Shown: positions 23,571 through 26,305 of the stretch, piece after piece | Position numbering within the stretch: position 1 is the first letter of the stretch | How the letters are laid out: each line of letters opens with the position of its first letter | DNA from: Actinomycetota bacterium | GTDB taxonomy: Bacteria > Actinomycetota > Actinomycetes > Nanopelagicales > Nanopelagicaceae | Reading direction: 5' to 3' | NCBI GenBank assembly: GCA_016870715.1 | Contig: VGAL01000007.1 | Span: 1-50,142, forward strand | Length of the DNA: 50,142 bases | Program-made: the position numbers and the translations under genes | The notes under the pieces: model-generated | Database searches by the model: none | What the model was told of the DNA's origin: nothing | Seen by the model: only the letters and a program-made list of their open reading frames with translations

Positions 23571-24338
23571 TTAATCTTCCTTCATTCCTTCTGCAGCAGA
23601 CTTCATGCGTGCAATCTTGTAGATCGTGAGACCGAAGACGCACTTTGCCAAAATATCTGCAATGGTGTAACCAGTCTGGCGCCATACGAATGCATCCGTA
23701 TCTCCGATATCGAAGAGTGGGAACATGTATGAGATTGGGTATACACCCCATGTAGCAATGAGAAGCATGCGTAGCCGTCCGACTGTCGCTGCAACGCCCG
23801 CTGGTTGACGCTCAAGTGATGCGCCAAGTTCGCGGAAGAGTACATAGAGGATGTAGAGGAATGGAATCGTTGAGAGAACGCCCCAGATGATCTTGGTGTT
23901 GTTGTCCATGGAGATTTCTCCTGGGTAGCCAAGACCAATCATCAGCGCAGATGCGATGACAAGGCGATTGGTGAGCGAGGAAGCTACTTCCTTTGCGAGC
24001 GCAAGAACTGCGATTGCCTCAACAAGAAGTAGTGGCACGGTAAGAATCCAGTCCACATAGCGATAGCCCTCGTTGAAGGCGTTATTGGCGCCGCGAACGG
24101 TGATGCTGTAGCCATCGCCAGCTGCCTCGTGGAATGAGTTGAAGATTCTCCAGTAGTGGTAACCAGCAATGAAGGTAACCATCGAGGAGAGGACAAGGGC
24201 CTTACGGTACTTCGGGAGTACACGTGGTTGGGAAACCAATGTGTACACCGTGCATGCGATCATGCTGATGAGGCCAAAGGAGAGGGTGTTGTAGATCCAG
24301 TTAAATTGCCCCTCGGTTAATGCGACAGCATTTGACAT
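23571..24338 (-). CDS. Actinorhodopsin, light-driven proton pump
   Basis: Seven-helix retinal protein of 255 residues that pumps protons outward in light. The retinal Schiff-base Lys is K232 (ADILAKCVFG). Helix C reads YRYVDWILTVPLLLVEA: the proton acceptor is D96, T100 is conserved, and E107 is the donor, matching proteorhodopsin D97/T101/E108. Leu104 at the colour-tuning site predicts green absorption. H61 in GYHYW pairs with the acceptor, as in proteorhodopsin. G153 in helix E (IIWGVLST) may be the fenestration Gly that lets a carotenoid antenna reach the retinal in xanthorhodopsin-like pumps (inference). ATG 24338 is chosen over a start 27 residues upstream because MSNAVALTEGQFNW is the natural N-terminus. 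It is monocistronic with its own terminator. Confidence 0.96.
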   Translation of the reverse strand: MSNAVALTEGQFNWIYNTLSFGLISMIACTVYTLVSQPRVLPKYRKALVLSSMVTFIAGYHYWRIFNSFHEAAGDGYSITVRGANNAFNEGYRYVDWILTVPLLLVEAIAVLALAKEVASSLTNRLVIASALMIGLGYPGEISMDNNTKIIWGVLSTIPFLYILYVLFRELGASLERQPAGVAATVGRLRMLLIATWGVYPISYMFPLFDIGDTDAFVWRQTGYTIADILAKCVFGLTIYKIARMKSAAEGMKED

Positions 24339-24592
24339 AGAGGTGATGCCTTCCGTTGTAGTGCCCCAGGGGCATTTTGCCCACCGGGAGGCGCCAGCCA
24401 AGCCAGGCCCCGATATCAACGGTCTGGCTCTTTAAGCACCTGTTGCCCCAAGGGTGAGGCCTGGCTCACAAAGGTGCAAGCAATAAATGCCCTTTTTCAT
24501 TAATTTTTTTAATAAATAATCCCGTAGAACACGACAAATCGGACAGAGGCCCAGACCCTACCCCGCAAAGCCCGTGACCTACTCTTACCCCC
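24339..24592 (-). promoter_or_regulatory. Rhodopsin upstream region with three GGYCTGGCT-type repeats and inverted repeats
   Basis: This 254-nt divergent gap contains AGCCAGGCC (24401-24409), GGTCTGGCT (24421-24429) and GGCCTGGCT (24458-24466): two direct copies and one inverted copy of the same motif, the outer pair being perfect 9-bp inverted repeats. The last copy lies in GTGAGGCCTGGCTCAC (24454-24469). TGCCCC-A-GGGGCA (24362-24374) is a further inverted repeat close to the rhodopsin start. An AT-rich tract (24485-24520) probably holds the promoter. On the plus side TACTCT at 24575-24580 could be a -10 for a leaderless transcript of the next gene. Confidence 0.5.
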
Positions 24593-25012
24593 ATGACCCT
24601 TCGCATTGGCGCTCATCTCGTTACTGCCCTCTGGGAGCATGCCGAGCGGGAGCATCCGATCGAGGCATGCGGGGTGATTGCTGGCCCGGCGAGCGCGAAT
24701 CTGCCCACCCGACATATCCCGATGGAGAACTCCGCATATTCGCCCACCTTCTATGAGTTTGAGTCGAAGGCGCTCCTGCGGCTTTATCAAGAGCTCGATG
24801 ATCTTGACGAGGCTCCGATAGTCATTTATCACTCACATACCTCGACTGAGGCCTATCCATCGCGTACCGATATTGCATACGCCGGCGAGCCGGGGGCGCA
24901 TTATGTTCTCTTATCTACTCGCGAAGAGATTGCACCTAGAAGCGAACTCCGTTCCTTTCGAATCATAGATGGCGTTGTTACCGAAGAATCAGTGGAAATC
25001 ATCGGCGATTAG
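24593..25012 (+). CDS. mec: JAMM/M67 metallopeptidase (Mec-type, CysO processing)
   Basis: A 139-residue zinc peptidase of the JAB1/MPN/Mov34 fold. The full JAMM motif is present: Glu24 in PIEACGVIAG, then H80-S-H82-x7-S90-x2-D93. In Mycobacterium the homologue (Mec) releases cysteine from the CysO-cysteine adduct. The neighbours here, CysO and CysM, match that pathway exactly. The start is ATG 24593, only seven bases downstream of a possible -10 element, so translation may begin on a leaderless mRNA. No membrane segment. Confidence 0.92.
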   Translation: MTLRIGAHLVTALWEHAEREHPIEACGVIAGPASANLPTRHIPMENSAYSPTFYEFESKALLRLYQELDDLDEAPIVIYHSHTSTEAYPSRTDIAYAGEPGAHYVLLSTREEIAPRSELRSFRIIDGVVTEESVEIIGD

Positions 25013-25044
25013 CGTGAAGGCGAACGCTACGGAATAATAAAGAT

Positions 25045-26305
<1,261 letters not shown>

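Follow-up and report, generated by a model that had tools for sequence, protein, structure and literature searches.

Functional RNA oligomers are described in PMC7357161 as rarely observed in nature. In HIV-1 (the DIS) and other retroviruses, a leader hairpin with a six-nucleotide palindromic apical loop joins two RNAs, and the palindrome of the DIS is flanked by strictly conserved purines (PMC7357161). According to the same source, the oskar mRNA homodimerises via a six-nucleotide palindromic loop, while the bacterial leader hairpins of the guanidine-II (mini-ykkC) riboswitch kiss via self-complementary loops (PMC7357161). A hairpin with a seven-nucleotide loop, made up of one nucleotide and a six-base palindrome, is found about 79 nt before the actinorhodopsin gene in the stretch of DNA analysed here (50,142 nucleotides, hereafter the window), which derives from a member of the Nanopelagicaceae.

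The window genome falls in the genus of strain IMCC26077, which has been assigned to acI-C1 (PMC5301498). Its rhodopsin is a member of the bacteriorhodopsin family (Bac_rhodopsin, Pfam PF01036 match), is encoded on the minus strand with its start codon at 24338-24336, and has orthologues throughout the acI lineage, with the gene being present in 241 of the 296 Nanopelagicaceae genomes. The acI are very common lake bacteria, and rhodopsin serves as a light-driven pump. A 254 bp region separates the gene from a divergent gene on the plus strand. At 24593-26305, the divergent genes, whose products are by domain matches a Prok-JAB protein and a member of the ThiS family, are followed by an ORF which we take to resemble a cysteine synthase, an order presumably like that of the mycobacterial mec-cysO-cysM set. 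The intergenic region had been highlighted in a sequence-only reading for three copies of the motif GGYCTGGCT within 66 bp, and all three are indeed present as exact matches:

23571-24338, minus strand: actinorhodopsin gene, 255 amino acids plus stop codon (Pfam PF01036; orthologues in the family)
24401-24409: motif copy 1, exact, AGCCAGGCC on the plus strand and GGCCTGGCT on the minus strand
24421-24429, plus strand: motif copy 2, exact, GGTCTGGCT
24458-24466, plus strand: motif copy 3, exact, GGCCTGGCT, in the spacer of the putative promoter and not conserved in the genus

The outer copies (1 and 3) form the perfect 9-bp inverted repeat that had been claimed, while copies 1 and 2 form an inverted repeat matching at eight of nine positions. 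The window has four matches to the motif, where 100 dinucleotide shuffles averaged 0.67 and never gave as many as four; three of the four fall inside the 66 bp, locally above chance. There is no enrichment across the genome, where 18 sites compare with 14 for a reversed control pattern. A CRP/GlxR-like site, made up of the perfect inverted repeat with GTGAG..CTCAC at copy 3, was considered and set aside, as its half-sites are spaced by eight nucleotides instead of the six of the CRP/GlxR consensus and it decays in relatives.

When the upstream regions of five genomes of the window genus were aligned, the longest invariant run comprised 23 nt (CAGACCGTTGATATCGGGGCCTG, window 24426 to 24404, minus strand), covering most of copies 2 and 1 and everything between them, while 53 of the 156 alignment columns outside this run are invariant. 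A 19-nt core has one exact match per genome in four sampled members of the genus, always before rhodopsin, with one further site bearing three mismatches in genome G000. A covariance model of the genus leaders (R2) likewise retrieved the leader and nothing else in all five genomes. Copy 3 is lost in the relatives in the alignment. In this comparison of related upstream regions, proposed earlier as a check on the motif, the invariant core thus falls on copies 1 and 2. That copy 1 also matches copy 3 as a perfect inverted repeat is probably a coincidence. The relevant pair is copies 1 and 2, which make up the two sides of a single hairpin within the 5' leader predicted for the rhodopsin mRNA. 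The elements of this leader and its putative promoter, listed from the promoter towards the gene, are:

24474-24479, minus strand: putative -35 box TTGCAC, placed by eye by alignment with leaders L015 and L067
24451-24456, minus strand: putative -10 box CACCCT, placed by eye, 17 nt from the -35 box
24435-24441, minus strand: 5' strand of outer helix P1, from the consensus fold of five genus leaders
24402-24428, minus strand: hairpin A (P2), with arms 24419-24428 and 24402-24411, corresponding to motif copies 2 and 1
24412-24418, minus strand: seven-nucleotide apical loop UGAUAUC of hairpin A, with the palindrome GATATC at 24412-24417
24389-24395, minus strand: 3' strand of outer helix P1, from the same consensus fold
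24365-24388, minus strand: hairpin B (P3), with arms 24380-24388 and 24365-24372, from the genus consensus fold
24349-24354, minus strand: Shine-Dalgarno sequence GGAAGG, read from the sequence and invariant in the genus

The register of hairpin A was set by comparison with 139 leaders of the family; in the window hairpin itself a rival CCG/CGG register is more stable by about 0.7 kcal/mol and buries one end of the hexamer. As a single sequence, the window leader folds only moderately better than its shuffles (z -2.1); a fold of the plus strand was discarded, being little better than shuffles (z -0.84). Covariation among the genus leaders amounts to 0.236 against 0.189 in shuffled alignments, a value reached by 12 of 500 shuffles of only five sequences. 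Within this, the covariation of P1 is weak in the window genus and strong at the equivalent place in the genera with CATATG loops, while the hairpin at the place of hairpin B covaries strongly in Planktophila-type leaders. It is likely that the window carries a structured leader.

A two-box fit across the 139 leaders returned the pattern (T)TGCAAA, a spacer of approximately 16-17 nt and CACAAT; in 73 of the 139 it ends 25-26 nt ahead of the loop. In the window, a scan with the sigma-70 consensus found no promoter and the automatic two-box fit chose other boxes than those listed above. If the listed boxes are right, transcription would start near 24444-24447 and thus 5' of copies 1 and 2 and 3' of copy 3. 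Several further elements were observed in these upstream regions. In other families of actinobacteria, the 130 nt preceding rhodopsin repeatedly contain a box similar to TTGCG, in many cases CAACTTGCG or CAAGTTGCGG (by eye, for example in L325, L326, L335 and L336), which resembles the TTGCAA box of the Nanopelagicaceae. The sequence TGTCCGAWTT (window 24536-24545, minus strand) is present upstream of rhodopsin in 21 of the 185 stretches, where 0.07 would be expected, mostly 187-200 nt 5' of the start codon, which is the end of the examined stretch, and at three sites in the window's own genome; it is possibly a candidate regulator site common to rhodopsin and the divergent gene. Two overlapping terminator-like stems with a weak T tract lie at 24540-24563 (minus strand), 5' of the putative rhodopsin promoter.

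Across the Nanopelagicaceae, 249 leaders were assembled from the family genomes with rhodopsin and from genome contigs and reduced to 185 that are unique over their last 130 nt, leaving out L173 (99 nt), L231 (for which no start codon was found), leaders shorter than 130 nt or containing N, and duplicates. With a hairpin defined by at least five of nine pairs and a seven-nucleotide loop whose last six letters are palindromic, 137 of the 185 leaders carry a CTCGAG (76), CATATG (56) or GATATC (5, the window genus) loop approximately 79 nt before the start codon. Together with two further palindromes from single genomes these make up the set of 139, in 130 of which the loop begins 74-88 nt 5' of the start codon. 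When the best hairpin with a seven-nucleotide loop was chosen with palindromy ignored, its hexamer was palindromic in 88 of 143 leaders, compared with 35 of 1836 across 20 sets of shuffled sequences. The hexamer occurs just once in each of the 139 leaders, where 3.3 second copies would be expected, and its mean unpaired probability in predicted folds is 0.65-0.82 in the three main classes, so that the self-complementary hexamer is predicted to be exposed in the apical loop, as in a DIS-like kissing loop.

Among 174 genomes sorted by genus, GATATC occurs in g1, CTCGAG in g2, g13 and one g11 genome, CATATG in g4, g6, g7, g10, g11 and four g2 genomes, and TACGTA in one g6 genome, while five g2 genomes have in common the non-palindromic loop CCCCACG and no palindromic loop was found in g3, g5, g8, g9, g12 and g14. 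None of the three palindromes is present in 48 of the 185 leaders, among which L108 carries TACGTA. A possible GAATTC loop in L085 was not counted as support, given that the model R1 described below aligns this leader differently. The loops CCCTGGG and CCTTAGG of L030, L050 and L052 are self-complementary save for the central base (by eye) and may represent a variant form of the palindromic type. In a separate group (L061, L065, L070, L075, L077, L082, L083, L093, L288 and L290) the palindromic-loop hairpin before rhodopsin is replaced by CCGAG-(4 nt)-CTCGG, perhaps another leader type. Among twenty rhodopsin leaders from outside the family (19 full length and one of 202 nt), two isolated palindromic loops were found, one at -95 and one, a TTGCAA box, at -108, and the palindromic loop therefore looks, on present sequences, confined to the Nanopelagicaceae. 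Selection for the self-complementarity of the loop is probable, though with the hexamers nearly constant inside each clade it is backed by few independent switches of palindrome.

The base-paired nature of the leader is borne out by compensatory changes, which are found in related genera and are weak in the window genus. In 39 CTCGAG leaders, both sides have changed in 16 of the 18 pairs that make up hairpins A and B, with a covariation of 0.537 against 0.236 in shuffled alignments and at most 0.193 in versions slid out of register. In 20 CATATG leaders, the same holds for 14 of the 16 pairs formed by P1 and hairpin A (0.668 against 0.269 shuffled). Both sets are a diverse choice from the 76 and 56 leaders of their class, with five long CATATG leaders omitted from 25. 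At pairs 1-8 of 96 distinct hairpins, the sense strand of rhodopsin shows 137 G-U pairs for 34 A-C mismatches, counted ungapped in sequences of shared ancestry and hence not as independent events; a joint alignment of these hairpins was set aside, as its loops were misaligned. Without the closing pair, which is mostly U-G and perhaps truly part of the loop, the counts are 73 to 31 in the 96 distinct hairpins. Symmetry at the DNA level would give equal numbers of both, and the excess of G-U therefore argues for an RNA structure. It is highly probable that a structured leader precedes rhodopsin in the family.

Covariance models were built from the CTCGAG leaders only (R1) and from the CATATG leaders (R3). 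With R1, 59 of 60 selected leaders were recovered, among them leaders of the CATATG class. In 61 whole genomes it gave one match each in 37, of which 33 adjoin the rhodopsin start in nine genera, while the off-target matches (G038, G035, G295 and G004) are weak (E 0.005-0.06); that in G004 is its sole match in the window genus. In g3 and g5 it is hairpin B and the Shine-Dalgarno stretch, not hairpin A, that account for its matches. R3 matched 16 of 41 genomes in seven genera. The window leader has no meaningful score with R1 or R3, nor did the R3 genome run give one for the window genus; by analogy in position, geometry, loop register, palindrome and gene, instead of model score, it would belong to the same kind. 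Model placements and loop-to-start distances put the leader at a fixed place before one orthologous gene. No match to the window stretch is present in Rfam 15 even at an E-value of 5, and a search of 20 rhodopsin loci matched nothing but tRNAs and, elsewhere, a single SAM-IV riboswitch, which lies close to the rhodopsin of Planktophila versatilis (L031 4921-5030, minus strand). Viral contigs yielded no relative. A literature search with little coverage of subscription journals found no publication on this leader or its regulation, on an RNA motif of rhodopsin genes, or on the control of rhodopsin output in acI. These comparisons show, for the family, the structure, its position, the palindromes and the restriction to rhodopsin.

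Of the two possibilities offered in the sequence-only reading, an operator with several sites and a structured 5' leader, it is the leader that is upheld. A DNA operator for a dimeric regulator responding to light, oxygen or nutrients would account for the presence, close to a promoter, of an inverted repeat whose centre is palindromic, but the repeat set is not conserved, copy 3 lies upstream of the putative transcription start and the hairpin downstream of it. The motif also lacks genome-wide enrichment and the core occupies one place per genome, while the stem arms vary freely yet retain pairing of the RNA type, with more G-U than A-C on the sense strand, and an operator is thus highly improbable. 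That the repeats are functionless products of chance in a GC-rich stretch would fit the unconserved copy 3 and the moderate fold of the window leader, but is contradicted by the invariant 23-nt run, the covariation in the family and the single model match per genome at rhodopsin, and is scarcely credible. A riboswitch for a ligand such as a retinal precursor, flavin or an ion, with the loop as a tertiary-contact or aptamer-dimer element, would agree with a multi-helix leader ending at the Shine-Dalgarno site and has a precedent in the self-complementary loops that pair in guanidine-II riboswitches (PMC7357161). Against this, Rfam holds no match, few positions beyond the loop and the Shine-Dalgarno context are invariant across genera, and the leader precedes rhodopsin only and has not spread to other genes, which makes a riboswitch quite improbable.

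Binding of the leader by a putative protein that recognises loop and stem, in which case the palindrome would reflect a dimeric protein or its loop preference, is an unlikely reading, though one with more in its favour. Within clades the loop hexamer is fixed (76 of 76 for CTCGAG) while stems vary; stem and loop are both invariant in the window genus, and the leader is kept with a non-palindromic loop in some genera. A loop recognised as one strand, however, gives no reason for three or four distinct hexamers that are all self-complementary.

The best explanation on the sequences at hand would be a structured leader, probably controlling translation, whose loop pairs with itself in trans, and to this reading as a whole we give an even chance. 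A cis-acting leader RNA would precede rhodopsin in most Nanopelagicaceae (acI), running from outer helix P1 through hairpin A with its seven-nucleotide loop and hairpin B to the Shine-Dalgarno site. The loop hexamer of one rhodopsin mRNA could then form six base pairs with the same loop of a second mRNA, the partner suggested by a hexamer that is self-complementary and present only once per leader. Pairing of the loop with the Shine-Dalgarno sequence was dismissed, being possible by eye only for the CCUC of the CTCGAG class. The dimer may alter the translation or decay of the message, an effect suggested by the leader adjoining the Shine-Dalgarno site, and dimerisation would tie the output of the pump to the abundance of the message. 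The start of transcription, the dimer, its effect and its trigger are what we infer. Computed extended dimers of the isolated hairpin gain 12.2, 14.9 and 9.8 kcal/mol in three palindromic examples and 2.6 kcal/mol in one non-palindromic example, which are rough figures and not kissing energies, while the AU-rich hexamers form weak duplexes, with -4.2 kcal/mol for GAUAUC and -3.6 kcal/mol for CAUAUG. A kissing dimer of mRNAs through the palindromic loop is a serious if slightly disfavoured possibility. More tentatively, and with considerable doubt, acI rhodopsin mRNAs may dimerise in trans via a kissing loop in their leaders as a counterpart of retroviral dimer initiation reached independently, with the dimer sensing message abundance or gathering messages at the membrane and so setting the amount of pump, and with palindromes swapped while self-complementarity is kept. 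This would carry the sharp prediction that a leader with a swapped palindrome keeps its function and one with a broken palindrome loses it. The conserved leader RNA offers a definite handle on the control of rhodopsin output in acI, and, if its loop joins two mRNAs, would represent a rare natural RNA homodimer in bacteria.

Compared with the guanidine-II riboswitch, in which conserved ACGR loops form a kiss of two base pairs and guanidine is the ligand, the loops described here are six-base palindromes that differ among lineages, precede one gene only and have no Rfam match. The oskar dimer involves a eukaryotic 3'-UTR and localisation, whereas the element here is a bacterial 5' leader adjoining a Shine-Dalgarno site. 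The closest likeness is to the HIV-1 DIS, in that a 5' leader hairpin has a six-nucleotide palindrome in its apical loop, and the hexamer register of the DIS is the same, with two nucleotides before and one after when the closing pair is counted as open. Unlike in the DIS, the 5' flank here is C, U, A or G, often a pyrimidine, and so departs from the purine flanks, while the 3' neighbour of the palindrome is nearly always G or A. The setting also differs, being a bacterial mRNA leader before rhodopsin with partly AU-rich hexamers and a dimer that is only proposed, and the likeness to the DIS implies no common descent.
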